64,000 bases of DNA from positions 9,327,615 through 9,391,614 of the forward strand of contig NZ_CP036264.1 in NCBI RefSeq assembly GCF_008035925.1. Reading direction: 5' to 3'. The translations under genes and the position numbers were made by a program. Below, one piece after another: positions 8,736-40,182 of this stretch. Under the pieces are notes generated by a model. It was not told the DNA's origin. It was given only the letters and a program-made list of their open reading frames with translations, and made no database searches. The stretch comes from Stieleria maiorica. GTDB lineage: Bacteria > Planctomycetota > Planctomycetia > Pirellulales > Pirellulaceae. Positions within the stretch are counted from its first letter, which is position 1. Every line of letters starts with the position of its first letter.

Positions 8736-8821
8736 AACGTAGCTACCTTCGCCAGAAGGTGGATCCCCGGGGTTTTCCACGCTCAGGCGAGCGTAGCTAC
8801 GCCAAGGTGGCGCTGTCGAGC
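8736..8821 (+). repeat. Interspersed 86-bp repeat, copy 1 (partner at 28041)
   Basis: The stretch shares a contiguous block (AACGTAGCTACCTTCGCCAG, then AAGGTGGATCCCCGG) and a second block (CAAGGTGGCGCTGTC) with 28041-28127. The middle part differs. Internal inverted repeats (CCTTCGCCAGAAGG, GCGTAGCTACGC) suggest a REP-like palindrome. It sits downstream of the 5,277-aa gene. Confidence 0.75.
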
Positions 8822-8903
8822 CAGGCTCGGTTCCCGGGCGGAGCCCGGGAACGAGGCATGATTCATGTCCTCCACGAAGGGCAAACGATCGGCATCGCGC
8901 CTG

Positions 8904-17900: not shown

Positions 17901-20900
17901 GTCGCGTTCGGCCAACAGCGAGTCGTTCGACGCGGCCAGAATGTCGCCGTTGAAGTCGATCAATTCGATCACCGTGTCCAGCCCGCTGCTGGTGCGGTCG
18001 ATGTCCAACCAGACTTCGGTGTTGCTCTCGGCGATGAAGGTGTACACGTCCACGTCATTGCGAGTCGTGATCGCACCATCGACGATGAACCCGAGTCGTC
18101 GATTTTCATCGCCCGATTGCTCGTCGGGGGCCAGTTCACCCAGGAACTGTGCTTGACCGGGGAACGAGTTGGTGTCGAACACCGTGGTCCGCACCGGTTC
18201 TTGTTCGGCCACGGCGGCGACGTTGCGGTCATCGGCACCTTCGCGAATGGTGACGCCGTTCCACTGGCCGGCTTGGACGGTCGTCCCGGGCGCCGCGGCG
18301 GTCGGATCCGATGCCAACAGTTCCAGGAAGCTGGTCACCCGCGCGCTCGAAGCGTTCGAGTTGACCACCCAAGAGTGCGCGGTGGTGATGTCGTTGGGGC
18401 CGAAGGTGGTGCCGAAGACCGGGTCGTTGCCTTGCGGCAGGTCGCCCAGGTCGATCACGCCGGGGATCGAGTAGGTTTGGGTGCCGGCGGTGATCTGGGT
18501 CCGCAGATCGGCGAACTGATCGGCCGCCCAGCCTTCGTAGGTCGCGCCCAGCTGATTGACGCCGTCGTTGGCGTAGAATCCGCCGTGGGAGAAACCGACA
18601 CGCAGCGGACCGTCGACGGTGTAGACCCGGAAATCGGATTGGCCGGGGGTTCCGACGGTGTACAGCAGGTCGTCCGAGACCCCTTGAACATCCTCGTCCA
18701 AGTAGCTGACGACGCGGATGTCGCCCAGCGGCGATGTCGATTGCAGGTCCAGGGTCGAGAACAGCGTGGGCAAGCCGTTGATGAAGTAGCTGGTCGCGAT
18801 CCAGTCGACGTTTCCGTTGGGGCCGGCGTAGGTGCCGCGGCTTTCCACGCGGTCGTCGGCGATCAGGGTCGCCGGCTGGGTGATCGTCGTCGCCGCCAGC
18901 GCGGTCGTCGTGCCGCCGCTGGTCAGGAACGTGCTGTACTGGAAGACGAAGTCTTGGTTGACCAGTTGCTGCCCGGTGGGGGTCTGGACGGTTGTGGCGC
19001 TCGACTGCACGTCGTTGGCATCGCCGATCGTCGCGGTGAATGATCCGGTGATGGTCGCCGCGACGTCGTTGTCGATCGTGTTGCCCAGGTTGACTTCGGG
19101 GCCGGTCGGAAGCGTTCCGACGAAGTTTCCGCCGCTTCCGGTGTCGTCGTCATCGTCGTCGCCGGTGATGACGCCGCTGATCACACCGTCGTTGTCGGTG
19201 TCGACTTGTGCGAAGCCGTCGATCGTGAATCCGGCACCGGAGAAGTCATCCGACAGTGCGGTCATGATCACCGGGAAATCGGGGTGCCCGATCAATTGCA
19301 ACGAGCCGCCGATCCGGTCGGCGATGTCGACGAATTCATCGGCCGCGGTGAGCAGTGATCCACCGACAACGATCCCGGCCGGGTTCGTTTCTTCCTCGCC
19401 TTCCTGTGTTTGAAGTTTGACGACCAGCGACCCCCGGGCATCACTGATCAGTCGCAGACCGCCATAGATGTGCTTGTTGGGGATCTCGATCATCTCGGTG
19501 ACGACGTGGACGATGTCGACGTCGTCCCAAACCCCTTCGGTGACCAGTTCACCGCCGCGAACCGCCATGCCGTTGATCGCGTTGCGCGTGATCGAGTTGT
19601 CTTCGATCAGCGGACCGCTATTGCCGATGATGTCAAACTTGTCGATCGAGCCGGTGGATCGACCGCCGTCAAAGACCTCTTGGGAGTTCAGCGAGTTGAT
19701 GTCGATCGAGATCGCAGCGGCTTCGTTGTCGATGAAGTCGTTGTCGACGATGATCGGGGTTGCGGCGCGAACGAACACGGCACCCGATGCATTGTCGCTG
19801 CGTCCGACGCGGGTGCCGTTCAGGGCACCGCGGCCGTCGGCACTTTGTTCGATGCGACTGTTGGTCAGACGCAATTGGCCCTGGTGGACTTCGATCGAGT
19901 TGAAGGAGGCAAAGCCGCCTTCGATCCGGGTCGTACCACCACCGCCGGCGATCACGGCATTGTCGATGCTGGCCGTCGATCCGTGGCCGATGTACAGTCC
20001 GCCCCAATCACCGGGGGCGATTTCAGCCGCGTTGCCGCGGTCGTTGGTGTCAAAAGTCCCGCCGGCACCGTAGCGCTGGTCTTCCAAGCTGGTGATCACG
20101 ACCGGGTTGCCCGAGGTGCCTTCGATGATCAAGTTGGCGCCGAAGCGGGCTTCGATGCGTGCCGCGTCGACCTTCAAGACCGTCGACGGATCGATCACCA
20201 AGCTGGCGTCCAATCGGCTGCGGAGCGGGCTGGCGGACAGTTGAAGTTCCGCGCCGCCGGTGGCCATGCGATCGGTGAACGTGGTGCTGCTGGCGTTGAG
20301 CTCGGCGACCAGTTCGAACGGACCGGGGACGCCGCCGACGACGGTCGCCCGGTACAGTCGTCGGGCCACGGTCGCGCTGCCCGGTTCGACCGTGGGGAGC
20401 TGTTGCAGGCGGATGCCGCCGGTGCTGTTGGTCGTGATCGAAACGGTCGTCTCGCTGGCGGCCGATTCCAAATTGGCGTCGGTCACGTTGGTCAGGCGGT
20501 ACACGTAGGTTCCGGCCGGGACCGCACCGTCGGTCGGGCGGGCGGACAACCGGATCAGGAACGAAGACGGCGCGTCGGCTTGGACGATGGGGCCACCGGG
20601 GGTACCGGCGACGACCAGGTTTTCGGCCAACACGTGCGTGATGTCGCTGTCATCAAAACGGGTGCTGGTGGTGACCGATTCCAGCGTCGATCCGCTGCGG
20701 GTCTTCAAGCGAATGAACAGGCCGTTGATGCTGTTGTCGATCACCGTGTTGCCGTGGATCTCCGGACCGACACGGGTGTAATCGGGGGTGAAGTGTCCCG
20801 CTTGCTGGTACTTCGGATCGGTGAAGCGGTCTTCGCGGAACGTGTCCGGGGTCGCCGCGATCGCCGCATCCTTGCTGTTGGTGATCGTCGAATTGATGAT

Positions 20901-23900
20901 CGTCGGACGGGTGATCGCCATGTCGATCGGAGAAACGACGACGTCGCGGCCGCCGATCCTGACCGAGCTACCGCCGTAACGAATGTCGGCGTATTGGACG
21001 TGGTTGTTGAAGACGCCTTGGTCTTCCGGGTTGGTGCGGAGCTCGTCGGCCGCGTCGAGGTCGCCGCGGAAGTCGATGCCGCCCCAATCGCCGGGCTGGG
21101 CCGCCGGCAAAACGCCGACCTGGTTTCCGGTCCCGATCGAGTCGTCGTTGACACTGGTCAAGAACACGCTGCCGGGGATGATCCCGCCGGCGGCATCGCG
21201 GGCGGGCAGTCCGTTGCTGGTCACGATCGTCGGCGTTCCCAGCACTTGCAGGTTGGCACCACTCAAGTCGATCGTCGGTGCGACGCTGCCCACGCCCAGT
21301 CGGGTGTTGCTGAACTTTAAAATCGCCCCGGCGTCGACCATCATTTGAATGCCCGCGGGCAGATTCAACGTGGTGCCGTCTTCCAGCGGCAAGCCGCTAT
21401 CGTTGACGCCGATGTTGTAGCTGAAGTTGTCGCCTGCGGTGTGCAACAATCCGTCACGACCGCCATTGCCGAGCACACGAATCGTCAAATCCAGGTCGGT
21501 CAGGTAGTTGGTGATCGCTTCGGCGCGTTGGATGTCGTTCTGATTTCCGGACAGACGCAGCTGATTGAGTTCGGTCAGCGTTCCGTTGAACGCTTTTTGT
21601 TTCAGGACCGAGATCCGGCTGGCGTCGGCGATCGCAAGGTCGATTTCATCATAGGCGCTGTTCACATAGCCGATCGTTCGGGTCTGGAACGCTTCGATGA
21701 ATGCCAGATCGCCAAGTCCCGACGGCACAAAACCGCTGGCTTGGCGTAGCGTCACGTTGCCTTTGTCGACGTACAGGGTTTCGGACGGATCGGAAGGCTT
21801 GAACCAGTAGTTGAACGTGCCTCCGGGGCGGCCGTCGGAATCACCGTCCAGCGGGATGCCGGTGTTGTCGGTCATCGTGTTGATGGCCGAGGGCGTGAAA
21901 TCCACGCGCAGTTCATAGCTGCCTTGGCTGAGACCGCCAAAGCCGGTGCCGGGGATCGCCGGATCATAGGTGTCGTTGCCCTTGGCGCTGACCCCGATCA
22001 TGTAGTTTCCGGGATTGATGTTGTCGATCCGGATCAGCGAATCGTTGCTGAAGTAGTCGTCGTTCTGAGCGATTTCGACGAACTGGCCGTTGGCGTCTTC
22101 GACGTACAGACGCAGCTGGGTGTCCAGCAGGCTGGGCGTGCCCAATCGTTCGGCGATCGTTTCGATCGCGACCGATCCGGTCTGGTCGACCTGGAATCGA
22201 TACATGTCGATGTCGGTGCTGTCCGGGCGATACAGATACTGCCCGTGGACGATGTCGGCATAACTGGGGAACGCCGGCTCGTTGTCCGTGCCCGGTTGGA
22301 AGATAAAGTCGGTGCTTTGGGTGACCGGCTGGGGCAGGTCGTCGGCATATCCGTATCCGAGCAACTGGCCGACGCCGAACATCGCACCGCGAAAGAACTC
22401 GCCGCCGAATTGGTCATCCACCGACTCGTCGAAGTCCTGGAAATCCATCACGACCAAGTCGTCCACGCCGTCACCGTTGCGGTCACGCGTGACAACGGCC
22501 AGACCGCCTTGGGCGCTGGCTTCGCGTTCATCACCGCCGTACAAGTCGCCGACGACGATCGAAAAACCAGCGATGTCGGCGGGGTCGCGGTCGGAAACTT
22601 CGACGAACGCGACTCCCAGGTATTCGCTGAACAGCGACATCACCTCGCGAACCCGCTGCTTTTGTTCTTCGCTGATGATGTTGAAGTAATTGGTGTCCGC
22701 GTTGATCCCCGGACGGTTCGGGTCGTCGCCCAACCAACTGGCGACGAAGTCGTATTCGATGGTCGTGATCCCGTCGACCCGGTCGGCAAACTGACGGACG
22801 TAGTCCAAGGGCACGACGCGGTCGAGTCGCGAGGGGTCTTCGGCGCGGATGGTTCGCGTGCCGGGAACGTCGGGGCCGGGCAGGTCCAATTCGAACGCCG
22901 TCTCGTTGCGGATCTCGCTGACCAGCGTCGCCGAACGCGTCGTCGTCGCACCGCTCAGACTCCACGTCGTGTTCAAGTTGTACGCCGTTTCAAAGCTGTC
23001 GCCGGCACCATCGGGGGCGGCCGGCGTGCCGGTCGGCAACATGATCTCCTGCGGTACCATCGGCAGGTTTTCGGTCGTTCCGACGCGTAGTCGCGCGTTC
23101 CCCTCGAGCAGTTGTCCTGGGGTTTCAGGATCCGGGATTCGCGACAAGGGGATCTTGAAATCCAGCTTTGCGATGTTCGTGATGTTGCTGTACGTCGCTC
23201 GGCCGGGAACACGGACGATCCAGCCGTCCCCGACCTTGGTGTTGACGATGCCGCTGACGCTCGGGTCCAGGCGAACGATCACGTCGTCAGTGTTGTCGAC
23301 CGAATCACGCGTGAAGATCAACTGGTAGAAGTCTTCGTTTTCTGCCGCCGACTGCAGCAGGTCGTCGTCGTTGAAGTGAACTTCGATGATGCCGGTATCG
23401 GTGCTGAGCGTCCCGTTGGGTTGGCGACGGACCGGTTCGGGCACGACCGCGACCACCTGGGGGCCCAGGTTGATGTTGAAGGTCCGCGTCAAATCGGTGC
23501 CGTCTTGAAACGCTTCGCCGTCTTCACCACGCAGCGCGAATGCCCCGGTACCCAACACATCGATCTGATAGATGTCGTCCGGCAGCGGTTCGGAAAACCG
23601 AAAGATCACTTCACGCGATGAATCGCCCAAGCCGACAAAACCCGGCTCGACCACCACGTCGCTGACGCCGCTCAGGTTGATCGGGGAATAGTTGACCGGC
23701 AGGTTGCCGATCGTTGTCGTCCCGTTGCCTTCTTGAACGGTGGCCTGAACCAGTTGGTTGGCTTGCGGGTTGGAATTGAGCTGGGCGACCAATTGGTCGG
23801 CCGTCGTCGGGGCGCCTGGGAAGCTGTTCAACTGGATCCGGATCGATTGATCGGTGACGACGATCACCGGGTTGGCCGGCGCGCCGAAGTTTCGCTGCTC

Positions 23901-24737
23901 GATCACCAGATTGGTTCCGCGGCCGTCCAAACCGGGCAGCTGCGAAATGAAGCGGACTCGCACCGCACCGTTGGTCCCAAAGTCCGTGACCGCTTGGGCC
24001 GCGTTGGCACCGTCCAGCACCAGCGTCTTGTCCTGCACGCTGTCGACCGACCCGATCCGCTGCCCCGACGGGCCACTGATCTGGATCGCTTCGATCAAAT
24101 CGCCGGCCCGCATCGGGGCGTCGGGATTGGTACGCAAGTCGCGATTGATTGCCGACACCAAGTCACGAGCCAACGTCCGCTGCAGCGGATTGATGTTGAT
24201 GTCGATCGTGATTTTGCGTCCGTCGCTCAGGTCCGTCGTGATGATCGGTGCCGACGTGCCGACGCGATTGGTCTCGGTGAACTCCACCTCGATCCCGTTG
24301 CCCAAGCTGCCCGATTGCCGGGCGCGAAACTCAAATAACGCCGTGCTACCGGTGCCCAAGTCGCTTGTGACCGAGGCCGATTCGAAGGTGCGGTCTTCAC
24401 CGGCACGCGTGATCCGAATCGCATCCAGGGTGCTCTCGTCGATTCGCGTGTTGTCGTCGAACCGGAACACCAATTCCTTGGGCGAAAAATTCAACGTGTC
24501 ACCGTTGAACAGCAAGTCGCCTTCGTTGGGCTGAATCCCGATCAGCTCGGGACCGGCCAGCAATTGCCGGGTTTCCAAGCTTTCCATCAGTGATCGCCGT
24601 TTTTCGTCGCGGCGTTTCCCGCTGCGGCGATTGCGGCCGGCACGATGGGCCGCGGGCGAAGTCGTACCATCGGTCGGCAACCCGGAGTTACGGCTGAGAT
24701 GTGTGCGAAGGGAATGCGATGGTTTGCGGAAGGTCAT
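8904..24737 (-). CDS. 5,277-residue giant surface protein with pseudo-metalloprotease, PPC, beta-helix, GEVED and dockerin regions
   Basis: The start at 24737 has GAGG seven bases upstream. After a basic leader comes MESLETRQLLAG (about 51-62), the planctomycete export motif. A region at about 640-810 resembles a metalloprotease but reads AMFGVGQLLGYGY (785-797) where a HExGHxxGxxH zinc site would be expected. PPC-type beta domains are visible near 836-945, 2210-2270 and 2540-2680. Right-handed beta-helix-like stretches (repeated N-x-I-x-x-N) occur near 1245-1295, 4045-4110 and 4310-4360. A long repetitive midsection resembles flagellin- or haemagglutinin-like motifs. A GEVED domain (about 4920-5085, ending GIGEVEDYSIFV) and a dockerin pair (about 5090-5160) come near the end, followed by an Asp/Ser-rich tail. 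No stop interrupts the 15.8-kb frame. Probable cell-surface or matrix protein. Confidence 0.9.
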   Translation of the reverse strand: MTFRKPSHSLRTHLSRNSGLPTDGTTSPAAHRAGRNRRSGKRRDEKRRSLMESLETRQLLAGPELIGIQPNEGDLLFNGDTLNFSPKELVFRFDDNTRIDESTLDAIRITRAGEDRTFESASVTSDLGTGSTALFEFRARQSGSLGNGIEVEFTETNRVGTSAPIITTDLSDGRKITIDININPLQRTLARDLVSAINRDLRTNPDAPMRAGDLIEAIQISGPSGQRIGSVDSVQDKTLVLDGANAAQAVTDFGTNGAVRVRFISQLPGLDGRGTNLVIEQRNFGAPANPVIVVTDQSIRIQLNSFPGAPTTADQLVAQLNSNPQANQLVQATVQEGNGTTTIGNLPVNYSPINLSGVSDVVVEPGFVGLGDSSREVIFRFSEPLPDDIYQIDVLGTGAFALRGEDGEAFQDGTDLTRTFNINLGPQVVAVVPEPVRRQPNGTLSTDTGIIEVHFNDDDLLQSAAENEDFYQLIFTRDSVDNTDDVIVRLDPSVSGIVNTKVGDGWIVRVPGRATYSNITNIAKLDFKIPLSRIPDPETPGQLLEGNARLRVGTTENLPMVPQEIMLPTGTPAAPDGAGDSFETAYNLNTTWSLSGATTTRSATLVSEIRNETAFELDLPGPDVPGTRTIRAEDPSRLDRVVPLDYVRQFADRVDGITTIEYDFVASWLGDDPNRPGINADTNYFNIISEEQKQRVREVMSLFSEYLGVAFVEVSDRDPADIAGFSIVVGDLYGGDEREASAQGGLAVVTRDRNGDGVDDLVVMDFQDFDESVDDQFGGEFFRGAMFGVGQLLGYGYADDLPQPVTQSTDFIFQPGTDNEPAFPSYADIVHGQYLYRPDSTDIDMYRFQVDQTGSVAIETIAERLGTPSLLDTQLRLYVEDANGQFVEIAQNDDYFSNDSLIRIDNINPGNYMIGVSAKGNDTYDPAIPGTGFGGLSQGSYELRVDFTPSAINTMTDNTGIPLDGDSDGRPGGTFNYWFKPSDPSETLYVDKGNVTLRQASGFVPSGLGDLAFIEAFQTRTIGYVNSAYDEIDLAIADASRISVLKQKAFNGTLTELNQLRLSGNQNDIQRAEAITNYLTDLDLTIRVLGNGGRDGLLHTAGDNFSYNIGVNDSGLPLEDGTTLNLPAGIQMMVDAGAILKFSNTRLGVGSVAPTIDLSGANLQVLGTPTIVTSNGLPARDAAGGIIPGSVFLTSVNDDSIGTGNQVGVLPAAQPGDWGGIDFRGDLDAADELRTNPEDQGVFNNHVQYADIRYGGSSVRIGGRDVVVSPIDMAITRPTIINSTITNSKDAAIAATPDTFREDRFTDPKYQQAGHFTPDYTRVGPEIHGNTVIDNSINGLFIRLKTRSGSTLESVTTSTRFDDSDITHVLAENLVVAGTPGGPIVQADAPSSFLIRLSARPTDGAVPAGTYVYRLTNVTDANLESAASETTVSITTNSTGGIRLQQLPTVEPGSATVARRLYRATVVGGVPGPFELVAELNASSTTFTDRMATGGAELQLSASPLRSRLDASLVIDPSTVLKVDAARIEARFGANLIIEGTSGNPVVITSLEDQRYGAGGTFDTNDRGNAAEIAPGDWGGLYIGHGSTASIDNAVIAGGGGTTRIEGGFASFNSIEVHQGQLRLTNSRIEQSADGRGALNGTRVGRSDNASGAVFVRAATPIIVDNDFIDNEAAAISIDINSLNSQEVFDGGRSTGSIDKFDIIGNSGPLIEDNSITRNAINGMAVRGGELVTEGVWDDVDIVHVVTEMIEIPNKHIYGGLRLISDARGSLVVKLQTQEGEEETNPAGIVVGGSLLTAADEFVDIADRIGGSLQLIGHPDFPVIMTALSDDFSGAGFTIDGFAQVDTDNDGVISGVITGDDDDDDTGSGGNFVGTLPTGPEVNLGNTIDNDVAATITGSFTATIGDANDVQSSATTVQTPTGQQLVNQDFVFQYSTFLTSGGTTTALAATTITQPATLIADDRVESRGTYAGPNGNVDWIATSYFINGLPTLFSTLDLQSTSPLGDIRVVSYLDEDVQGVSDDLLYTVGTPGQSDFRVYTVDGPLRVGFSHGGFYANDGVNQLGATYEGWAADQFADLRTQITAGTQTYSIPGVIDLGDLPQGNDPVFGTTFGPNDITTAHSWVVNSNASSARVTSFLELLASDPTAAAPGTTVQAGQWNGVTIREGADDRNVAAVAEQEPVRTTVFDTNSFPGQAQFLGELAPDEQSGDENRRLGFIVDGAITTRNDVDVYTFIAESNTEVWLDIDRTSSGLDTVIELIDFNGDILAASNDSLLAERDVATGIYVSPRLDSDAAQPLTVNEERIPVQRITVDYDIVNATSGNLTFGLAGMPGTTVNVAPADFVADPAGAIADALNSTFAGELGFVTAQLLSRGDTSDFVVEVRFDANFFTALQVPEIIGTANPIFPAINNLRFETDILDSVLQDTYSYNPKDAGMRIRLPGESGTLNQYHVRVRSSNVRDGSDLDGLVNGNVLGGLTQGRYSMQIRLGETDESAGTQIRLTDVRYATNGVQVIGQPLHSPLTGEEAETTAPNDTASDAQRLGYFGVGADAGVEAGPLQSDRLAKSFAGTIDSATDVDWYSFEVQYENLTRDGSPLYLSTVIDLDYASNFARSDMALYVFNARGDLIYTGTDSNIANDLPASRSNNSTDDLSRGGAGTQDPYLGSVELLEGTYYVAISNQTQVPIAMDQFFNPASNNPLVRLQPLQSIDRIAEDDMNDRVLFDESSIVPYSLDDVVLYVNTASGLHVVNPFTGQNYGQVGSFGSDDIYDVAFRSNGELFAYTGFGNRVRSDNTWFYVQIDTGSAALNQISAGAGITTYGDILVEVNSQQILDAVANEGVFVEAISIREYKNVERGLFVGSRPTFNGASGLEYRDNVLWEFSPQTGLAVGPSFNRFLFNSGAGTIPREIGQIDTTAPATARSTQLGVTDVVGVVGSGLLQQQLFDGDTFTLVSGIDTTTFEFDFAGDVAVTGSPVLDGDTLTIGSTIFEFDTGPRLRLAGVSANGGLDVGQTLTVTDASNVSATFEFVNQGDAPSAGNIPIDIRFASGQARTAVQINNDLELAIQNALSGVTTTVLGADLAFDNATFTFDGAGMSVVGGDGVNAGNIAIEVDESFGATQVLNAILAALTANNIPFTTVGQTFSVPGATSIGVNSQALVSGGSPGVQVGRTAIPLDLSDTAADVAQKVADAINNLGGAATAVAQNRSVTINGGFIGSATGNLVAGGVPRGGTVTGVEIVGNDMYAITDAGGLFRVTDAELTGGSNQFLNGNRQIGTYVETATDLLRVPGGFTGLRAGPNSVDGGLYSDVLFGITGNGDIYAFNSAGEFLPYFAGGRSRISTGIANAEGLDFSTLDYNLWHYTGTRSGDAGHGGSTSLAFTYETTYNSNYASPAEYPFRPDVNGNPLNPRIDGQSVNRTYNFPGGAKGQVQSKTFSLENYSPSDVPVLYFNYLIEADGGGRTDALRVYVVQPDGTEHAVALNTTLRNPLPGANDEFDDPDPVAPYNDVIDVDKQQLFDNTPTWRQARVPLAEFAGQSGLSLRIEFATAGRLDTGSTSIRTVAASDLVEGQTIRVSGETFTVDFPPTLIAAAGSQIAAAYLADPNTRATFVLDGQTYVLNDGTRTVDTSPSDPLDPNSPPTEVEIDLTAGLTGTETVADLTPAEITRLIETAVNTTPPATLSLYDLVVDSNSLEFGEAVNLSSNSSLLTVRNTTASGTNSIEVRAAMSASDVAVAVQSAILERFLPGTLGSTGPNYIPTSNAIVTLPGFTVSDAGPFANTSQRYADQFGATPVNGSRDNDFEGVFLDDFVIGLAERGEQVTDPRGANPPLDTAFVTDTRFAFPEPDDPRSDLVTGSYQVEIRDGSEYVASATSSQFRTFNSNDRFGSAISITARGAADILDGQMFSITDGRAIVEFEFNSDNSVTPGRVQVPFSLTVPDEDTGLMRPQTATEVAASIIAAINRSDVRSVLDVQAVPASGFESEVVAQPGIKQITRIDPRINLVGDVVVSDPTRSLASVDRSELRGDSNRDRVAQGVIMIENSRFLFNEEYGINIQHDISATVAGNDTDSIVRYPRNLIELNSENLVPGVVVQSNIIAFNTVGGINLQGIDNTLDETSQDPVAIERIVNNTIIGGTITPGVDAPSETFAGILFDQGQISFADAVVDYSPDAGGDAPTLIHQTPTSALGAPETLGRGVEPIDGQFTVSLGLGGTLTLQFVDNYLTGSGDATNDLVVFETGDIESVRVEISRDGIDFVDVGIVGGLTNQLDIDRFGFGPNDRFAFVRLTDLRQGNRTGSSLGADIDAVGAISSVPVDNFTQGGIGINIVGGSSPTLLNNVIANTETGVDLNGGNDGIVSGGNTYYLNTANTGANVGLGTLAQILTPSEAVFVDPGNFVFSPASGSRIIDSSIDSLPDRASLTTVRNAVGIDPSPVLAPRLDVNGQFRVDDPNVEPPSGLGENVFKDRGGFDRGDLEGPRVTLLSPLAPGIGLDAGRATVLGAAPQAFEIQLVDGIPPADIVPGTGIDDRSVSTSSLILLKDGVALVEGTHYRFAYNPSTNIIRLTPIAGVWEDDSTYVIRMIDSSDAIIQAADGVVYPDGETVTIIDELNQRTVFEYDSGIIIDMLPGLTSTAADGLTIEVYDGAVTRSFELDVNNASTPISTAVTIPEAGDTEDFIAALAAAINADTLLSFTARASGETLQLVGGTPLSTATSTSGFIQIAGRIGTATGFGFEIPPLPGSTIADVADGQTIVVRLGAVNEVVFEFDNNGLLNDPTSTAVPFATGASLDQVINALVIAIGGSGLGLAPTNAGFGRIFLGGDSTYSIDLTNSNATQIGLAGDQPTVPINIPIDQPAEEIVKIIQAAIDAENLPGVSTSLVDVRVFLEGTGGVSGFGAVDIVVVQDQVGNLLQSNQADGRTELTIFVGTGFDYGDAPAPYVSELADGGARHRVDPTLSLGQVVTADSDAELPNADAGDDGVTLPTTFQAGFESNISMFVRNTDAGLLTDNPVYVDAWFDWNQNGVFEASERRRFGTPGTNRTPVFNNTATTVSIDVPANAALGETYVRFRISESATTGPTGSGGIGEVEDYSIFVTNNPFQNPNGRFDVNNSGSVTPLDALNVINAIARNAAGTGFVDLQVTPITNPQYPDVNGDGILSPMDANGVITELGRLVNQGEGEAAAMSYLAAAPGVLASGPTVLGDLMIHQSVTSDVLPSTSADADSDSDAVPAATDFVDPPSKTSVFDSPASIELDAIVDDLAADVSASDASETSENENGLDLFFASL

Positions 24738-28127: not shown

Positions 28128-28415
28128 CGAGAAATCAATCTCCATCGACACGTCAAAAGCGGAAGCTCACTCGCTTGCGCGTCGTGCTTGTATCGCTTGG
28201 CGAAACTCTTGGCGAGTTCCGCTACTGCAGAATCAAACGTTGACGAAACGCTCGCACTTTACCGGTTGTGACGGTTCTGCCGCTTCACACTTGCACCTCT
28301 GACGCTGCCCACCCAGCGGGCGGATGAGTTGTCCGCCCCGAGGCGAGATTGTTGACGTACGGTTTTCGACCTTCCGTTGAAAACCGTCCTTCTTCACTCG
28401 CCGGCAAGTGTTTCC

Positions 28416-29153
28416 ATGCAATACATCGCTCAGGACATCCCACAGGAACAGTACTTGGCCCTCGGCGCGATCGGGTTTGCGATCATCGGGGCTGTCCTCT
28501 TCGTGACCTTTGCCATGATGGCTGGCACACTGAAGCTGTCGATCGCTTGGCTGGGTAAAGCGTCCCCGAGCTATCTGGCGTGTTTCGGTTGGTTGTTGGC
28601 GATCACCTTCGTCAACTGCTTTCTTGTCGTCGGGACGCAAAGCCTGTTCGGGGAAACCGCGGTGTTGCTGGTCACGCCGCTCACCTGGTTCGTGACGCTG
28701 TACATGGTTTCGACGGCCGCCAATTGCGGACTGTTCCGCGCGCTGGGGATTTGGATCGTCAATTCGTTCTTATCCGCGTTCGGAATGGCGGCGATTATTT
28801 TGGTTGCGCTGATTCCGTTTTCGATTCTGGGGGCGGGGTTGGATGTCGGCGGTGATCGGCTGCAGGCAGAATTTGAGAAAGTGGACGCGATGATCGCGGA
28901 ACTGGACGAACAGCAGCAGACGCTCGACCAGATCGAGGTTCCCGAAATCGTCGAAGTCAGTTTTCCATCCGAGGAAGACGCAGAACCGTCGCAGCCGAGC
29001 GAATCAATCGACGCTGATGCGACCGACCAAAAGACGCCAGCTGCCTCGACGATCCGCATCAAGCCTCGGTCCAGCGTTCGACCGGACCGACCAACCGTCA
29101 CGCCCCGGCGCGCCGCCGACGGGAGCATGGTGAACCCGTTCTTCGAAAACTGA
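28416..29153 (+). CDS. Four-helix membrane protein with acidic/basic cytoplasmic tail
   Basis: 245 residues from the ATG at 28416, which starts directly before the first hydrophobic segment; an in-frame start at 28377 is less likely. Transmembrane segments are predicted at about 13-36, 55-76, 80-100 and 112-141. A soluble C-terminal tail of about 100 residues has a coiled-coil-prone part (FEKVDAMIAELDEQQQTLDQ), a Glu/Ser-rich part and a basic, Pro-rich end (SSVRPDRPTVTPRRAADG). I do not recognise the family. The stop codon is 45 bases before the CHAT protease gene on the same strand, so all three genes 28416-32769 may be co-transcribed and the protein may anchor that system. Neither point is proven. 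Confidence 0.7.
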   Translation: MQYIAQDIPQEQYLALGAIGFAIIGAVLFVTFAMMAGTLKLSIAWLGKASPSYLACFGWLLAITFVNCFLVVGTQSLFGETAVLLVTPLTWFVTLYMVSTAANCGLFRALGIWIVNSFLSAFGMAAIILVALIPFSILGAGLDVGGDRLQAEFEKVDAMIAELDEQQQTLDQIEVPEIVEVSFPSEEDAEPSQPSESIDADATDQKTPAASTIRIKPRSSVRPDRPTVTPRRAADGSMVNPFFEN

Positions 29154-29198
29154 TCGGCGGCGATCGGCCGCGCGGTCGATCCCGATCCAGGAGGACCG

Positions 29199-31460
29199 AT
29201 GTCCAGCGTCGTCTTACGCACCAGCGAGTCCGAGGTTTGTCGCATCCGCTGCGGGCCGCCCCTGCAAGCGTTCGCGATGCGTTGGAACTATGTCGTTCGC
29301 CAACGGCATCGTTGGGCCGATGATCCGGCGGCTCGAAAGCGACAGACGATGCGGTTGCAGCGCGACCTCCGCTCGCTAGGCGTCACCGCCAAACATCTCC
29401 GCCGGCTCAAGGGCATCGTGGAGGTCTCGGTGCCCGATTCCGACACCGACCAGCACTGGGAATCCAGGATCTTGCCCTGGGAGTACGTGTTGGCGGCGGC
29501 GACCAAACCCTATCGTGTTGACGACGCGATCTTGGTGGTTCGGCATCTGAGAACCGGCCGTCGCAAACGCACGCGGACACCGAAACGGTTGGTGGTGATC
29601 GAGACGGCGCCGGGTGGACTGGCGCGGCACTTCAATTTCTCCGCCCAACGCCAGCTGGTCACCGGAGGGCTTCAGGCACTCGACTGCGAAACGATCTCGG
29701 TTTTGGAAAACCCGACCGAAAGGCAATTCGGTCAGGAGATTCAATCGGTAGCCCCGGACATCGTGCACGTGACCGGGTTCGATAATCGCAGCGGTCGCGA
29801 GCGGTTGGGCGGCAACCTGTCAGGGGTCCGCGACGGGCTGTATCTGGCCGATCCTTCCAGCGAGGCCAAGGAATACCGCGCCGAAGTGATCGCACGGTTG
29901 CTGAACCGCGGTTCGCCGAATCCGTTGTTGGTCGGATTGCAGTGTTGGGACTCCGCGGCGCGATTGGCCCCGATGACGATTCACGCCGGTGCGCGGTCGG
30001 CGATCGGGTTCCAACACACGTTTGACGAGGCGGTCGCCGAGATTTTCTTCCTGCACTTCTATCGCGCGTATGCTGATTCCCAGTGGAACATCCTGGCGGC
30101 GTTTTGCAGCGGGTGGGAATCGATCGCGGCCTATCGACCACGGATTCGCGGCAGCAGCATCGTGCTTTGGTCGGCCGATTCGTTGGTTTCTGCGGCGGCG
30201 GAAATCGGGCGGGAATGTTTTGGTGCGGCCGCGTCAAAGTCGCCGCCGCGGCCGCTGCGGAGCTCTGTCGCGCGTTCGGCCGATCCCGATCAGGTGCGCA
30301 TCCGCGATTTGGTGCAGGTTTCGGTGCGGCCCCACAAGCAGATCAACTACTCGTCGCTCCACAACGGCCAGAGCGTCTTTGACCAGCTGACGTTGCGGTT
30401 GAACCCGAACGATGACCAGCGCGACGCGATCACCCAGATCGATGACTTGGAACTGGAGGTCCAATTGCACGTCGGCGTCGATTCGTATCCGTTTCGATCA
30501 AGATTGGATTTGAGCACGCGGACCTATCGCTACGATCTGGCCGACCGGGTGACGTTGCCGCTGACCGGCGACGTGTTTCGCGAGATCAACGAACGTGTCC
30601 AAACCAGCCTGTTCGTCGATCTGCGTTGGCACGACCAGGTGTTGTACCGTCACACCCATTCGATCTGGTTGGCCCCGATGGATCAGTGGACGTTGGATGC
30701 TTCGCAGATCGGCTGGTTGCCATCGTTCGTGCAACCTCGCGACCCGGCGGTGGCACGGACCATCGACGTCGCCCAGGGCTATTTGCAATGTTTGAACGAT
30801 CGGGTCGGAGCCGGATTCGACGGCTACCAAAGCTACGACGGGTTCGCCTCGGGGCTGGAGTGTTGGGCGGGTGTGGATCGGCAAGTGCGATCGATTTGGG
30901 CGGCGCTGTTGCTCGGTGCAAAGCTGCGCTACATCAATCCGCCGCCGTCGTACGCCGACTTTACCCAGCGGTTACGAACACCCGGTGAAACCATCGGCGG
31001 CGGTTTCGGCACCTGTGTCGATTTGGCGATCGTGATGGCGTCGTGTTTGGAGTGGATCGAAGTGCATCCCGTGTTGTTCCTGTTGCACGGACACGTCTTC
31101 GTCGGCTATTGGAAAGACGTCAGTGCCCATCGCCGTTTTTTGGATGTGGTCACCGAAGATCTGCCGGCCCAGACCGGTGAAAGTGAACTGCCGCGTGATG
31201 ACGGATCGCAGCGTTGGGTGTCGGGTCCGAAAACGTATGCGGAGATCAAAGGGTTTGTCGATCGCGGTGAATTGGTGCCGATCGAGACGGTGGCGTTGAC
31301 GACGGGAAAAGGATTCGGCGCGGCGATTGACGAGGGGCGCGGTCACTTCTACAAAAAACGCAGTCGCGCGTTTCGCGCCATGATCGATTTGGTCAGTGCC
31401 CGAGCCGACGACGGTGTCACACCGCTGCCCCTTCGATTTTCCGATCATCACGTCGGCTAG
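29199..31460 (+). CDS. CHAT protease fused to a transglutaminase-like domain
   Basis: 753 residues; AGGAGG lies seven bases before the ATG. Residues about 70-345 read as a CHAT (caspase-like) peptidase: LPWEYVL at 92-98, the His block DIVHVTGF (H190) and the Cys block LVGLQCWDS (C249), then AIGFQHTFDEAVAEIFFLHFY. A beta-rich linker (about 365-500) follows. Residues about 505-655 match the transglutaminase-like module known from DUF4011-type helicases: LPSFVQPRDP, FDGYQS, RLRTPGE, GTCVDLAIVMASCLE (C606) and LLHGHVFVGYW (H632), with D649 as possible third residue. Two putative cysteine-protease centres in one chain is unusual. The next gene, an alpha/beta-hydrolase, begins 10 bases downstream and is probably translationally coupled. 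Likely role: protease of a conflict or signalling cassette (inference). There is no signal peptide, so it is cytoplasmic. Confidence 0.8.
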   Translation: MSSVVLRTSESEVCRIRCGPPLQAFAMRWNYVVRQRHRWADDPAARKRQTMRLQRDLRSLGVTAKHLRRLKGIVEVSVPDSDTDQHWESRILPWEYVLAAATKPYRVDDAILVVRHLRTGRRKRTRTPKRLVVIETAPGGLARHFNFSAQRQLVTGGLQALDCETISVLENPTERQFGQEIQSVAPDIVHVTGFDNRSGRERLGGNLSGVRDGLYLADPSSEAKEYRAEVIARLLNRGSPNPLLVGLQCWDSAARLAPMTIHAGARSAIGFQHTFDEAVAEIFFLHFYRAYADSQWNILAAFCSGWESIAAYRPRIRGSSIVLWSADSLVSAAAEIGRECFGAAASKSPPRPLRSSVARSADPDQVRIRDLVQVSVRPHKQINYSSLHNGQSVFDQLTLRLNPNDDQRDAITQIDDLELEVQLHVGVDSYPFRSRLDLSTRTYRYDLADRVTLPLTGDVFREINERVQTSLFVDLRWHDQVLYRHTHSIWLAPMDQWTLDASQIGWLPSFVQPRDPAVARTIDVAQGYLQCLNDRVGAGFDGYQSYDGFASGLECWAGVDRQVRSIWAALLLGAKLRYINPPPSYADFTQRLRTPGETIGGGFGTCVDLAIVMASCLEWIEVHPVLFLLHGHVFVGYWKDVSAHRRFLDVVTEDLPAQTGESELPRDDGSQRWVSGPKTYAEIKGFVDRGELVPIETVALTTGKGFGAAIDEGRGHFYKKRSRAFRAMIDLVSARADDGVTPLPLRFSDHHVG

Positions 31461-31470
31461 GAGGTCCAAC

Positions 31471-32769
31471 ATGGACGGCAAGTTTCTTGAGATCGCGCGT
31501 GCGGCCACCGGCGGCAGCAGCCAAGTTCAGCCGCTGGTGCAGCAACCCGAGCGGACACGGGTTCGCACGACAACCAGCGTACCGGCGGATCAGCGGACGC
31601 CCGTGGTTCGTCTGCAACTGGTCGACGACGACGGCATCTTGGACTGGGAAGACGTCACCGCGATGCCGCCGGATCTGGGACGCTTTCGCGGCACGCCGTC
31701 GATCAAGGCCCGTGAGACATTCGATGCGATGGAGTTGGAATTCGAGCGGTTGCCGCCGTCCAAGATCACCCAGTTCCTGACCCATCGCGACGAAAAATTG
31801 ACGCCCCATCGAGGTTTGCGGCGTCTGGACGGTGACACCAAGACGCTGCGGCCGGCGGAGTTTCCCGATTCGGGGCAGGCACTGGTGTTCGTGCACGGGA
31901 CGTTCAGCAACAGCGAGAACATGATCGCCGGATTGTTGGACCAAAAAAACGAACGCGGTGGCGAATTTCTTGATCAGGCCCTGCGGCGTTACAACGGCAA
32001 CGTCTTCACCTTCGATCATCCGACGCTGTCGGTCGGGCCGATCTTGAACGCGTTTGATCTGCAGCGTGCCATCGGTGCCAGCGAAGCGACGATCCATCTG
32101 GTCAGCCACAGCCGCGGCGGGTTGGTGTCGCGGTGGTGGTGCGAGACGTTTGATCCGCTGGCCCGCCGCTGCGATAAATCAATCTTCGTCGGTTCGCCGT
32201 TGGCGGGGACGGGCTTGGCCGCACCGCCGAATATCCGCGAGACGATTCATCTGTTGACACAGTTCTCGCGGGCGCTCAAGACCGCGGCCGGATTGACCGC
32301 GCTTGCGATTCCAGTCTTTTCGGTCGTCGAGGCGATGTTGCGCGTCGTCACGTCGATCACCAACCTGGCGGCACGAACGCCGGTGGCCGATGCGGCGATG
32401 GCGATGGTGCCCGGTTTGTTCGGCATGTCACGCGTCGGCAACAACCCCGAACTGCGGCGGTTGTTGGATACGCCGCTGTCGCAAACCGAACGTTATTATG
32501 CGGTCCGGTCGGATTTCCAGCCCGTCGATCCGGCCTGGAAGTTTTGGCGGATGTTCCGCAAAGAACGTGTGGTCAACGCCGCCGCGGATGCATTGTTTGA
32601 CGGTGCCAACGATTTGGTCGTCGACACCCCTTCGATGATCAACTTGGCCGACGAATTGAAGATCCCCGGTTCGCGAGTCATGGATTTCGGCCAGTCCGCG
32701 ACCGTGCACCATTTGAACTATTTCTACCAGAGCGACACGGCCAAGTTCCTGGGCGACACGCTGTTGTAG
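31471..32769 (+). CDS. Alpha/beta-hydrolase (lipase/esterase-like) paired with the CHAT protease
   Basis: 432 residues from the ATG at 31471; its AGGAGG overlaps the TAG stop of the CHAT gene, which indicates translational coupling. A polar N-terminal region of about 130 residues without recognisable fold precedes the hydrolase: LVFVHGTFSN (138-147, oxyanion region), nucleophile elbow VSHSRGG with S214, acid candidate D381 in GANDLVVD, and H413/H414 in TVHHLNYF. An Ala/Val-rich helical insertion at about 265-315 could be a lid or a membrane-contacting segment. The fold resembles PGAP1/lecithin-acyltransferase-like hydrolases, so a lipid or acyl ester substrate is plausible. There is no signal peptide. 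The N-terminal region could be a pro-segment cut by the partner protease, which is hypothesis only. Confidence 0.8.
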   Translation: MDGKFLEIARAATGGSSQVQPLVQQPERTRVRTTTSVPADQRTPVVRLQLVDDDGILDWEDVTAMPPDLGRFRGTPSIKARETFDAMELEFERLPPSKITQFLTHRDEKLTPHRGLRRLDGDTKTLRPAEFPDSGQALVFVHGTFSNSENMIAGLLDQKNERGGEFLDQALRRYNGNVFTFDHPTLSVGPILNAFDLQRAIGASEATIHLVSHSRGGLVSRWWCETFDPLARRCDKSIFVGSPLAGTGLAAPPNIRETIHLLTQFSRALKTAAGLTALAIPVFSVVEAMLRVVTSITNLAARTPVADAAMAMVPGLFGMSRVGNNPELRRLLDTPLSQTERYYAVRSDFQPVDPAWKFWRMFRKERVVNAAADALFDGANDLVVDTPSMINLADELKIPGSRVMDFGQSATVHHLNYFYQSDTAKFLGDTLL

Positions 32770-32905: not shown

Positions 32906-33041
32906 GGGCTGTGCAAAATCGAGGTTTTGCGTTGGTTCAGAATTCCCGCGAGATCATTCCGTGATGGCTGGTCGAATCACAGCAGCCATCGGGCGACGAA
33001 ACACAAGTGACATCAGCCGGTTCGCGCAAGCGTTCGGGCCC
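32906..33041 (+). repeat. 136-bp interspersed repeat, copy 1 (partner at 61382)
   Basis: By eye about 117 of 136 positions match 61382-61517 without gaps. The most conserved part includes GCCATCGGGCGACGAAACAC and GTGACATCAGCCG. Its right end carries the TTCGCGCAAGCGTTCGGGCC arm shared with the elements at 36.8 and 42.0 kb. Confidence 0.8.
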
Positions 33042-33110
33042 CAGCGTCGATGGAGGCCCCAGCGTCGATGGAGGCCCCAGCGTCGATGGAGGCCCCAGCG
33101 TCGATGGAGG
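33039..33110 (+). repeat. 18-bp tandem repeat, four identical units
   Basis: Four exact copies of CCCCAGCGTCGATGGAGG sit between the 136-bp repeat and the next palindrome. Perfect identity suggests recent slippage or expansion. At the equivalent place after 61517 there is only a short unrelated duplication. Confidence 0.9.
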
Positions 33111-37042: not shown

Positions 37043-38752
37043 TCAGGCGATGATTTCGCGTTTGTTTTGGACGTAGTCCCAGAGGACGAATCGATCCAGG
37101 TTGTTTCCGCTGGTGAAGAACACGCGTCCGGAGGTGGATTGCGCCAGCCGGTTGGCGAACCGGATGTCTTCTTCGGATTGGGACCAACTGGGCACCAGGA
37201 AGATGTTGATCGTGATGCCGTCTTTGCTGCACAACATGGCTTCACGCATCGTGGCTTGCTCGGTTTGCGGGTCCGGCGGGTACAGCATGTACAGCCATTC
37301 GCCTTCGCAATGCGCGGTCGGCAATCCGTCGGTGATCAGCACGATCTGACGGTTGGGGGTGTCGCAATTGACCAGATTTTGGCGGGCCAATTGCAGCGAT
37401 CGTTGGATGTTGGTGAAGTGGGGATGGATTTGTGCTTCGCTGATTTCGGGATCGCTGAGGTCGGCTTTCAATCGCACCCAAGGGTCGTGGATCGTCACCG
37501 ATTTGGGCATCAGATTGATGATTTCTCCGGGGGCCCTCAATTTGGCGAAGGTGTACATTTCGATGAAACGCAAAAAATCGCCGGGGTACTCCGATTGAAT
37601 CAATCCCTGCAGGGCCAGCGCCATGCGTTTGACGTTCATGTACTGGCCGTCGTAGCGCATCGACCCGCTCATGTCCATGATCACGCAGGTGGCACACTTG
37701 GGGTGATTGCGTGTCTTGTGGATTTCGATGTCGTCGCTGCGGAGCCGCAGGGGCCGCTGGTCGCCTTGGCGGAGCAGGGCGTTGATGACCGTCTGCGGGA
37801 TGTCCATGTTGGTGACCGAATCACCGAATTCGTACGGTTTGGTCTGCTGCAGTTCCACCACACCTTCGCCGACGACCGGGCCTTGATGTCGTCCGGTTCG
37901 CGAGGGGGCGAGTTCGCTGAAGATCCGCTCCAGTAGTCGGCCTTGGAACAGCTTGTAGGCATGGGGCGTGAGGCGAAATTGTCCGGCCGAATCACGCTGC
38001 AACCCTTGGCGTTCGGCTTCTTCGCGGATCAGGTTTTCGACCTGCCGCCGCATCTCTTCGAGTTGTTCCATGTCGCCCGGTTGAGCGAACTCGCCCAGCA
38101 TGTCCATATCGATCAGCCCGATCTGGGCCGACTTGGCTGCCTCTTCGAGTTGTTTGAGCAGCTCGTCGATTTTTTCGAGTTCTTCCTTGATTTCCAGTGC
38201 CTTGGGGACCGACATCGATTCGTTGCCGGTGAACTCGTACTTGCTGGCCAGTTCTTCGATGTTGTGTTTGTCACCCATCCGTGCGGCGACTTTCAGCAGG
38301 TCGGTCGACAGCGAACCGCCGTGGTCTTCGGCGCGATACCAGAGCGATTCCAGCAGGTAGGGTTGTTCGCGGTTGATCGCTTGGCGGTAGGTTTCGGCAA
38401 GCTTTCGGGGGACGCGCACATCCTTGGCGGCTGAGTGAAACGCCTTGCGGGCCTTCTTTTGGACCGACCTCGCTTCGTACGTTTCCAAGATCTTGCGTTT
38501 GCGCTCTTCCAGCATCGCCTTGAGAAAATCGATGCTCGGGCCGAGTCCTTGGATCTGGCTGGGGTCCAAACGGACCGCGCGGGCGAGTTCCTCTTCGCTC
38601 AATTCACGGAATTCGCCGTACATCAACGCTTGTTCGAAGGCGGGCGAGACCAAATCCGGCGGCGGCTCGCTCGGCGGCGGGAACGTGGCCGGATCGTACT
38701 TTTGGTAGGCGTGGATGATGCCGCCGATTCGGCCGCCGCGTTGCTGGTTCAT
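37043..38752 (-). CDS. VWA-domain protein partnered with an AAA+ ATPase
   Basis: 569 residues. The N-terminal two thirds is helical and charged (coiled-coil-prone at about 185-250, EIKEELEKIDELLKQLEEA). The C-terminal 210 residues form a von Willebrand A domain with MIDAS DMSGS (360-364), followed by a TFAKLRAPGE segment and ITDGLPTAHCEG carrying the later MIDAS acidic residue. There is no signal peptide. It starts five bases after the stop of the AAA+ gene, so they form one transcript. VWA plus MoxR-type AAA+ pairs act as metal-dependent chaperone or insertion machines for other proteins; the client here is unknown. Confidence 0.85.
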   Translation of the reverse strand: MNQQRGGRIGGIIHAYQKYDPATFPPPSEPPPDLVSPAFEQALMYGEFRELSEEELARAVRLDPSQIQGLGPSIDFLKAMLEERKRKILETYEARSVQKKARKAFHSAAKDVRVPRKLAETYRQAINREQPYLLESLWYRAEDHGGSLSTDLLKVAARMGDKHNIEELASKYEFTGNESMSVPKALEIKEELEKIDELLKQLEEAAKSAQIGLIDMDMLGEFAQPGDMEQLEEMRRQVENLIREEAERQGLQRDSAGQFRLTPHAYKLFQGRLLERIFSELAPSRTGRHQGPVVGEGVVELQQTKPYEFGDSVTNMDIPQTVINALLRQGDQRPLRLRSDDIEIHKTRNHPKCATCVIMDMSGSMRYDGQYMNVKRMALALQGLIQSEYPGDFLRFIEMYTFAKLRAPGEIINLMPKSVTIHDPWVRLKADLSDPEISEAQIHPHFTNIQRSLQLARQNLVNCDTPNRQIVLITDGLPTAHCEGEWLYMLYPPDPQTEQATMREAMLCSKDGITINIFLVPSWSQSEEDIRFANRLAQSTSGRVFFTSGNNLDRFVLWDYVQNKREIIA

Positions 38753-38757
38753 TGCAA

Positions 38758-40182
38758 TTAGATTTCGTATTCGATTTTGCCGTGGCGTTGGGCGCGGCTG
38801 ATGCGATCCATGCTATACAGTCCCGCCAAAACGAACTCGACGCAACTGGCGCGAACGGCTTCGTTTTCACTGGCGTTGACCTCAAAAGCCAGATCCCATG
38901 CCGGTGGGACACTTTGCAATCGCTCGGCGTACTGGCTGCTGGGCAACAGATCGCCGACTTCGACCCGGACGCCGCTGCGGAAGATCTCCGCGATCTCGCC
39001 CAGCCCGTGCTTTTCGACGTATTCAGCGAAGATCACCGAGACCGCTTTGGCGACGACGGCGTCCAGGACTTGCCGTTCGCTCATCTGGTGCGTCCCCATC
39101 AGATCCAATTCCAGTTTCCCCAGAGAACTGGAGTACAGATGCCCCAAGTCGCTGATCCGTGGCACGGCCGGTCGTTCGTTGTGCAGGATGCCGCGTTGGC
39201 GGGCCGAGGCGATCATGGTGCGAAAATTGGCGAGCGAGAATCGTGCCGAAACGCCTGAGGCCTGGTCGATGAACTTGCTGCGCCGCGCCTGTTCGGTGAT
39301 CTCTTCGATCAACTGAAACATAAAGTAGGGCACTTGGACCGGATACTCGCCGCCTAAGTCCTCACCGATCTCTTGGCGTAGGATGTCAATTCCTTGATCG
39401 CGCTCGGTCGGATAATGTGTCTGGACGATCGTCCCGATTCGGTCCTTCAATTGCGGGATCACCTTGCCGCTGCGGTTGTAGGTCGCCGGGTTGGCCGAGA
39501 ACAGGATCATGATGTCCAGGTCGAATCGGATCGGATAGCCGCGGATTTGGACGTCACGTTCTTCGAGAATATTAAACAAGCCGACTTGAACCAGATCGTC
39601 CAGCTCGGGCAATTCGTTCATGGCAAAGATGCCGCGGTGCATCCGCGGGATCAGCCCGAACGACAACGCCTCTTCGGCACTCATGCTGACCCCGCCGGTC
39701 AGTTTGGCCGGATCGATTTCACCGATGATGTCGGCAAACTTCGTTCCCGGCGACAACCGTTCGGAGTAGCGGTGGTCACGATGCCACCAAGCGATCTTGA
39801 TCTCGTCGGGGTCCAGTGTGTGGACCAGTTGTTTGCCCAGCGATGTGACCGGATGGGTGGGGGCTTCGTGGACGGGCAGGTCGGGGTGATCGATGTAGGG
39901 AATCCACTCGTCCAAGAAACGCGTCAGCATCCGCATGATGCGGCTTTTTGCTTGCCCCTTCTCTCCCAGAAACAGCATGTCGTGGCCGGCCAGCAGGGCC
40001 AGATTGATCTCGGGGATCACGGTGTCGTCATAGCCGACGATTCCCGGAAACAGCTCCTCGCCGCCGGCAAGCATTCGCGTGAAGTTATCGCGGATCTCTT
40101 GCTTGACTGTTTTCGATTCCCAACCGCTCTCGATCAACTCTTTTAAAGTCGTAGCGGTGGGCGTTGCCGTCGCGACGTTCAT
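38758..40182 (-). CDS. AAA+ ATPase of the MoxR / magnesium-chelatase-like group
   Basis: 474 residues. Walker A GEKGQAKS (73-80), Walker B region [13 protein letters not shown] (184-196) with Asn before the catalytic Glu, then [17 protein letters not shown] and sensor-1 segment [14 protein letters not shown] (about 227-239). NELPEL in place of DE is, as I recall, common in this AAA+ subgroup. A helical lid follows ([13 protein letters not shown]). It is the first gene of a two-gene operon with the VWA protein. It would supply ATP-driven remodelling while the VWA protein binds the target. The upstream gap holds a MITE-like element, and the promoter was not identified. Confidence 0.88.

Follow-up and report, generated by a model that had tools for sequence, protein, structure and literature searches.

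By sequence comparison, two adjoining genes in a genome of Stieleria maiorica are a real, conserved unit, and the pair looks like a protease-controlled effector unit of some planctomycete bacteria. The first gene encodes a CHAT-fold domain without its catalytic dyad, joined to a ProA-type transglutaminase-like module, and the second encodes an alpha/beta-hydrolase; the remaining centre of each protein is invariant, with the counts given below. We put the probability that the two genes constitute a regulated effector unit, in which a sensor/protease with a transglutaminase-like centre controls a serine hydrolase, at roughly 45%. The features of the unit, numbered within the window (the whole stretch of 64,000 nucleotides that was analysed), are as follows.

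29189-29194, + strand: Shine-Dalgarno sequence AGGAGG of gene 1, read from the sequence
29199..31460, + strand: gene 1, 753 aa; dead CHAT-fold domain and ProA-type transglutaminase-like module
29475..30119, + strand: CHAT-fold region of gene 1 (profile alignment, residues 93-307), which retains the PWE motif but not the dyad
29766..29768, + strand: H190 of gene 1 (21/21), aligned with the first H of HfxGHG and not with the catalytic His
29778..29780, + strand: F194 of gene 1, at the CHAT catalytic His position (His in 0/21)
29943..29948, + strand: C249-W250 of gene 1, W250 at the CHAT catalytic Cys position (Cys in 0/21)
30312..31436, + strand: module common to gene 1 and the ProA/DUF4011 helicase N-terminus, residues ~372-746 (NF058533, tblastn)
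31014..31016, + strand: C606 of gene 1, proposed nucleophile (20/20)
31092..31094, + strand: H632 of gene 1, proposed general base (20/20)
31284..31286, + strand: E696 of gene 1, proposed third catalytic residue (20/20), a role that we infer from its position
31459..31464, + strand: AGGAGG, the gene 2 ribosome-binding site, which overlaps the gene 1 stop codon (TAG)
31471..32769, + strand: gene 2, 432 aa alpha/beta-hydrolase, start codon ATG
31882..32415, + strand: DUF7379 domain of gene 2, residues 138-315 (PF24096, E 4.9e-30)
32110..32112, + strand: S214 of gene 2, nucleophile in HSRGG (30/31)
32611..32613, + strand: D381 of gene 2 (31/31)
32710..32712, + strand: H414 of gene 2, catalytic His (31/31)

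The residues named in a preliminary description of this DNA (H190, C249, C606 and H632 of gene 1; S214, D381 and H413/H414 of gene 2) all lie where it had placed them, and its reading of a gene 2 ribosome-binding site over the gene 1 stop was likewise correct. Its proposal of a conserved gene pair held in a neighbourhood survey, in which homologous pairs were found in other genomes: the hydrolase was the next gene after gene 1 in 18 of the 20 loci with a visible downstream flank, and the neighbour in 10 of 12 clusters at 60% identity. Locus L037, which ends at a contig end, stands outside this count and the transglutaminase-like counts, and L118, which the tree does not include, was counted as hydrolase-bearing though its hydrolase is split over two frames. 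Measured in 14 loci, the intergenic gap ranged from –4 to +51 nt. At the other two loci (L119 and L120) gene 1 had no adjoining hydrolase, and the rest of the two genomes gave weak DUF7379 matches at best (38.5 bits in G859, above the Pfam cut-off of 33, and 29.8 bits in G893).

Gene 1 was matched in 54 of 392 genomes, in four of which (the window genome, G337, G340 and G174) both halves were matched; in G035 the match covered the CHAT half as far as the contig end, and the remaining matches fell mainly in the ProA-type half. Within the host family, strong matches occurred in 9 of 149 genomes; two other classes, sampled around positive genomes, gave 4/154 and 1/347. The set of 21 gene 1 sequences used below does not include seven weak matches at E 6e-6 to 5e-4 (G665, G240, G758, G787, G792, G799 and G838). 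When the flanks of 17 of the 21 loci were compared (the near copies L038-L040 and the contig-end locus L037 being left out), strongly similar flanking genes were common only within the Stieleria group and within the group of L035, L121 and L122, and other locus pairs had scattered flanking matches at 24-54% identity only.

The assignment of the first domain of gene 1 to the CHAT fold was borne out by profile-profile comparison with hhalign (probability 97.7%, E 1.4e-12) and by a second hhalign comparison (97.1%, E 7.1e-11), which place the domain within that fold. The window gene 1 protein had no Pfam match at E ≤ 1, and PF12770 was matched by two of six scanned homologues, at best with E 4.5e-5. 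We aligned the 21 gene 1 sequences, window included, with eight canonical CHAT domains in three alignment modes. The dyad columns of the window protein were F194 (His) and W250 (Cys), and the catalytic His and Cys were each absent from all 21 gene 1 sequences, compared with 8/8 for both in the canonical domains; the His position was F, V, I or L in 21/21. H190 and C249, which had been proposed as the CHAT catalytic pair, were rejected, since they fall outside these columns. Residue 249, immediately ahead of the Cys position, is a Cys in 8/21 sequences (all of the window cluster, and L114). Because the dyad is absent in 21/21, the CHAT domain very probably does not act as a protease, and therefore one conserved protease-like centre (C606/H632/E696) is present, not the two cysteine protease centres claimed before. 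The earlier reading, in which an active CHAT domain processes the hydrolase, would agree with the fold and with the eight sequences bearing Cys at residue 249, but it conflicts with a His position that is always F, V, I or L and a Cys position that is never Cys, and we consider it highly improbable. Canonical CHAT domains retain both residues, and in Craspase the TPR-CHAT protein Csx29, which has the CHAT fold in common with gene 1, keeps the His-Cys dyad that gene 1 has lost: H585/C627 is described as active in PMC9729208, and H585 is the His of the HG motif according to the alignment and ranges.

Residues 383-655 of gene 1 matched the N-terminal 250 positions of the ProA model NF058533 (E 1.7e-43), a model that was also matched by all five further homologues scanned (E 4.2e-50 to 1.9e-54). 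A tblastn search with the transglutaminase-like block gave matches in DUF4011/DUF3320 proteins on plasmids. These matches substantiate the claim of a transglutaminase-like Cys/His centre of the DUF4011-helicase kind. The likeness to ProA and the DUF4011-DUF3320 anti-phage helicases lies in this N-terminal module; unlike ProA, gene 1 lacks the helicase part and carries a CHAT-fold head instead, and its score of 148.4 bits is below the full-length equivalog cut-off of 1500, whereas a full ProA elsewhere in the window genome scored 2026 bits. C606, H632 and E696 were each invariant in 20/20 gene 1 sequences, and the transglutaminase-like protease centre is apparently intact as judged by its residues. 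Among solved structures, gene 1 alone or as a six-homologue profile had no match at E ≤ 1, and AlphaFold2 models from six sequences per gene (mean pLDDT 35.9 for gene 1 and 41.9 for gene 2) were too poor to judge the folds or a blocked active site.

Gene 2 was confirmed as the alpha/beta-hydrolase coupled to gene 1, its DUF7379 match scoring 105.3 bits against a gathering cut-off of 33 bits. The catalytic triad, Ser214-Asp381-His414, is near-universal among 31 aligned hydrolases; of the two histidines offered earlier, H414 stands (31/31) and H413 was rejected (20/31). The N-terminal ~85 residues vary, with 17-23 identities in 77-81 positions compared with the three distant homologues L034-L036, and residues 1-141 of the window hydrolase matched no Pfam model at E ≤ 1. 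Such a poorly conserved N-terminus is compatible with a pro-segment; a comparison with arbitrarily cut N-terminal parts of fused relatives gave an hhalign probability of 38.8%, by which likeness was not established. The DUF7379 family itself is common, with 64 of 392 genomes above the cut-off.

The same hydrolase clade occurs with another partner. The hydrolase of G115 (L086) lies inside this clade (98/97 with L123), and the gene that follows it matches PF12770 (1.7e-14), retains both residues of the canonical CHAT dyad and lacks a transglutaminase match; at the sequence level, the clade has thus exchanged its partner with an intact-looking CHAT. Fusions to CHAT or caspase occur in more distant hydrolase relatives. 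Among the 15 best DUF7379 places, which the partner check covered, 13 have a CHAT, caspase or pseudo-CHAT/transglutaminase partner, fused or adjacent; no partner was seen in G150, where the contig ends on the upstream side, or in G088. At two weaker places (G299 and a second copy in the window genome), no same-frame protease was recognised by eye. The caspase domains were identified by Pfam scan in L080, L084 and L088, and by eye from likeness to L080 in L081 and L082; PADLOC models matched L080 ('caspase', 1.7e-21) and L085 ('SAVED_CHAT', 1.4e-11). The distant DUF7379-CHAT fusion L078 bears the ternary-complex domain TCAD7.

No defence island was recognised around the window pair. PADLOC gave no match for gene 1, gene 2 or either L086 protein, and of 10 window neighbours scanned 9 were likewise unmatched, while in 1 the TPR region matched a PrimPol model. 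At 4.3 kb downstream, on the opposite strand, there is a MoxR-like/vWA gene pair; the search covered MoxR-like/vWA and not VMAP models, and tblastn found this pair in L038, L039, L042 and L123 among the 20 other loci. Relatives of gene 1 were not found in viral contigs by a pattern search sensitive to close relatives only, nor were relatives of gene 2 found in phage records at E ≤ 1e-5.

The preliminary description knew of no described system with exactly this composition. That statement needs qualifying, since pairs of a caspase-superfamily domain and an alpha/beta-hydrolase have been known since 2020: in the vWA-MoxR ternary (VMAP) systems, according to PMC7159879, caspase domains always adjoin an alpha/beta-hydrolase gene and transglutaminase-like peptidases are rarely present. 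The window pair resembles these in setting a caspase-clan domain and an alpha/beta-hydrolase side by side, a comparison made at the level of the alpha/beta-hydrolase and not of DUF7379. It differs in that its caspase-clan domain lacks the catalytic dyad and is linked to a ProA-type transglutaminase-like centre, and in that a VMAP operon was not recognised around it. In 2025, proteases of trypsin-like and caspase types were shown to switch on partner pro-nucleases, and other enzyme classes were suggested to be activated likewise (PMC12799240). The canu caspase-nuclease and trypsin/pro-nuclease pairs of that source share with the window the arrangement of a protease gene beside an effector-enzyme gene, although here the effector is an alpha/beta-hydrolase and the putative protease centre is transglutaminase-like. 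In the literature we found no account of a partner protease that combines a dead CHAT with a ProA-type centre.

In the regulated effector unit that we favour, gene 1 would be the sensor/protease, in which a ProA-type transglutaminase-like cysteine peptidase (C606-H632-E696) is joined to a dyad-less CHAT fold serving as a binding or sensing platform, and gene 2 would be a serine alpha/beta-hydrolase with a probable lipid or ester substrate. The variable N-terminal region of the hydrolase, or a complex with gene 1, may keep it inactive. Upon a trigger, the transglutaminase-like centre would cut or free the hydrolase, which would then damage the membrane or another ester and harm the cell or an invader, possibly in a defence role. 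A rather unlikely alternative is that gene 1 binds and restrains the hydrolase as a chaperone or inhibitor without cutting it, the transglutaminase-like centre targeting another host or phage protein, so that two effectors are under one control. The same module lies N-terminal to the helicase in ProA-type giants, and in L119 and L120 gene 1 persists with no hydrolase beside it, both of which observations suit this alternative; however, the partner exchange with intact-looking CHAT and the caspase fusions of relatives favour a proteolytic relation.

It is still less probable that the pair is a house-keeping unit with no conflict role, the hydrolase acting in lipid, envelope or storage-polymer metabolism after maturation by gene 1. 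The stable synteny of the locus in Stieleria, beside genes for a class II aminoacyl-tRNA synthetase and an ECF-type sigma factor, points in that direction, as does the absence of PADLOC matches to the pair. The patchy occurrence within the family and the two other classes argues against it, however, as do the module in common with an anti-phage family (NF058533 ProA) and the distant CHAT-hydrolase relative L076, which adjoins restriction-modification genes on a plasmid. One tentative history, to which we give about one chance in three, is that the catalytic centre of an immune protease was replaced: a caspase-clan (CHAT) protein that partnered a pro-hydrolase would have lost its activity, its job passing to a transglutaminase-like domain shared with the ProA helicase family, while the CHAT fold stayed on as a sensor.

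The pair offers a compact, testable case for the evolution of bacterial protease/effector pairs, in which one hydrolase clade has two kinds of partner: a CHAT that looks intact, or a dead one to which a foreign cysteine centre is joined. The ProA transglutaminase-like module is found here outside helicases, and its activity is therefore open to study apart from the helicase; the pair is also a functional lead for DUF7379. If the replacement of the centre is true, it would add a third protease type that switches on a partner, after the trypsin-like and caspase types (PMC12799240), with a lipase-like effector.

The window is part of a single 9.9 Mb contig in one assembly, and the two genes of the pair lie side by side on its forward strand:

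28377–29153 (+): 258-aa protein just upstream of gene 1
29199–31460 (+): gene 1, open reading frame, 753 aa
31471–32769 (+): gene 2, open reading frame, 432 aa

As the preliminary description had proposed, gene 2 has a ribosome-binding site that overlaps the gene 1 stop codon, and all of the residues which that description named in both proteins are at the positions it gave. The upstream protein, with hydrophobic stretches by eye, is present also in six other loci (L038–L042 and L114), and no match was found in the remaining pair loci searched. Downstream of gene 2, at 33037–33110, an 18-base unit is repeated about four times without mismatch, and one open reading frame (5277 aa) spans 8904–24737 (–).

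We collected gene-1 homologues from 392 genomes drawn from the phylum, from five loci in named genomes with close relatives (Rhodopirellula/Stieleria-type planctomycetes) and from sets of 347, 154 and 149 genomes, the last three being searched with the CHAT-like part as query. This yielded 21 sequences including the window's, in 13 clusters at 60% identity. The hydrolase was the next gene in 18 of the 20 loci with a visible downstream flank, which bears out the expectation of a conserved pair in other genomes; the pair is a real, conserved unit. The other two (L119 and L120) have no adjoining hydrolase, and their genomes gave best DUF7379 matches of 38.5 and 29.8 bits; two further genomes, from the window's genus but lacking gene 1, gave 51.9 and 23.7 bits. 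Gene-2 copies from six genomes with the pair scored 96–120 bits, well above the matches in those four genomes. At L120, the divergent homologue (7379–9658, 138.9 bits, no hydrolase neighbour) is followed by a long gene that appears coiled-coil-like by eye.

Flanks were compared for 17 of the 21 loci. Strongly similar flanking genes link members of the Stieleria group to each other, and likewise members of the L035/L121/L122 group, but no other loci; the remaining matches are scattered and weaker (24–54% identity). The pair therefore occupies about eight separate contexts (window group, L034, L035 group, L036, L116, L117, L118 and L123), with the caveat that a vWA/MoxR neighbourhood is common to L123 and the window. 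In the window, the opposite strand carries genes for a MoxR-like ATPase and a vWA protein (37046–40182, –), 4.3 kb downstream of the pair. A homologous vWA/MoxR pair (29%/39% identity) directly adjoins the gene pair in the distant genome carrying L123 (G737; L123 11156–13683). Among the 20 other loci searched, several of whose compared regions end short of it, it was found only in L038, L039, L042 and L123. This neighbourhood could be coincidental or could tie the pair to vWA-MoxR systems.

The N-terminal half of gene 1 had been described as a CHAT protease. The fold was supported by two profile–profile comparisons (97.7%, E 1.4e-12, against eight canonical CHAT sequences, and 97.1%, E 7.1e-11, against five), each E-value referring to one comparison, and PF12770 matched two of six homologues; the catalytic dyad, however, is absent from all 21 sequences. 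The columns that hold H and C in 8/8 canonical CHAT domains under three MAFFT modes hold F/V/I/L and W/F/H/Y/S/A, respectively, in gene 1 (F194 and W250 in the window). H190, the proposed catalytic histidine, aligns instead with the His that opens the HfxGHG motif. In Craspase, whose active residues are H585 and C627 (PMC9729208), H585 corresponds to the HG histidine, according to a profile alignment to deposited chains and arithmetic on ranges. Because H190 and S252 are both invariant (21/21), the pocket seems to be constrained for some use other than CHAT catalysis.

Residues 383–655 of gene 1 resemble NF058533, the model for the anti-phage protein ProA, over its positions 1–250 (E 1.7e-43). 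Pfam returned only weak transglutaminase models (PF04473 in three of six homologues, best 0.0033). C606, H632 and E696 are invariant in all 20 sequences covering them, and family membership leads us to infer that this centre is a peptidase. In a 2013 analysis, the domain in such giant proteins was named transglutaminase-like peptidase and protein cleavage was suggested (PMC3710099). The C-terminal half matched 77 plasmid records; the 20 listed were annotated as DUF4011 or DUF3320 proteins, with one DNA helicase. A full ProA (2026 bits, cut-off 1500) is encoded elsewhere in the window's genome, by the full-length ProA-type helicase gene at 3575–8896 of L091.

Gene 2 encodes an alpha/beta-hydrolase that scores 105.3 bits with Pfam family DUF7379, whose cut-off is 33. 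Of the 31 hydrolases aligned, 30 retain Ser214 and all retain Asp381; of the two histidines offered as catalytic, His414 is kept in 31 and His413 in 20, so the catalytic residue is His414. Conservation is poor over the first ~85 residues (17/78, 18/77 and 23/81 identical to L036, L035 and L034, respectively) compared with 37–44% identity in the remainder, and no Pfam model matched residues 1–141 of the window protein.

Control of the hydrolase by a cysteine protease would be the economical reading. If proteolysis is involved, the transglutaminase-like centre would do the cutting, because the CHAT dyad is absent and there is no other conserved protease-like centre. Nearly as good is a rival in which gene 1 holds the hydrolase in check and does not cleave it. 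The pair may also have a house-keeping role, which we retain as a further rival because in Stieleria the locus lies in synteny next to a gene for a class II aminoacyl-tRNA synthetase (by Pfam; presumably glycyl-type) and is without recognisable defence neighbours.

Related arrangements have been described. VMAP caspase-superfamily domains of NTP-dependent conflict systems always neighbour an alpha/beta-hydrolase gene, with transglutaminase-like peptidases occurring rarely (2020; PMC7159879), and further conflict systems contain such peptidases (2021; PMC8195603). Tuck et al. (2025) showed activation of partner pro-nucleases by proteases, one of them a caspase, and called the same activation of other enzyme classes possible (PMC12799240). 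Among the matches listed, from a partial literature with few subscription papers, we recognised no description of a dead CHAT domain fused to a ProA-type module and accompanied by DUF7379.

In a tree of 31 hydrolases, in which some start codons of distant copies were set by rule and may be wrong, the pair hydrolases and that of L086 (genome G115) form one set (100/98), L086 lying inside it beside L123 (98/97). The next gene after the L086 hydrolase encodes a canonical CHAT protein (PF12770, E 1.7e-14), in which no transglutaminase match was found. More distant DUF7379 hydrolases are fused, by Pfam, to CHAT (L078, L085, L087 and the plasmid proteins L074 and L075) or, in several planctomycetes, to C14 caspase (L080, L084, L088); a further plasmid protein, L076, is annotated as CHAT. 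In the L088 fusion, the catalytic Ser is replaced by Gly. DUF7379 is a common family, exceeding its cut-off in 64 of the 392 genomes, and 13 of the best 15 places, to which the partner survey refers, had such a cysteine-protease-type partner. Across these arrangements the hydrolase stays constant and its cysteine-protease-type partner changes.
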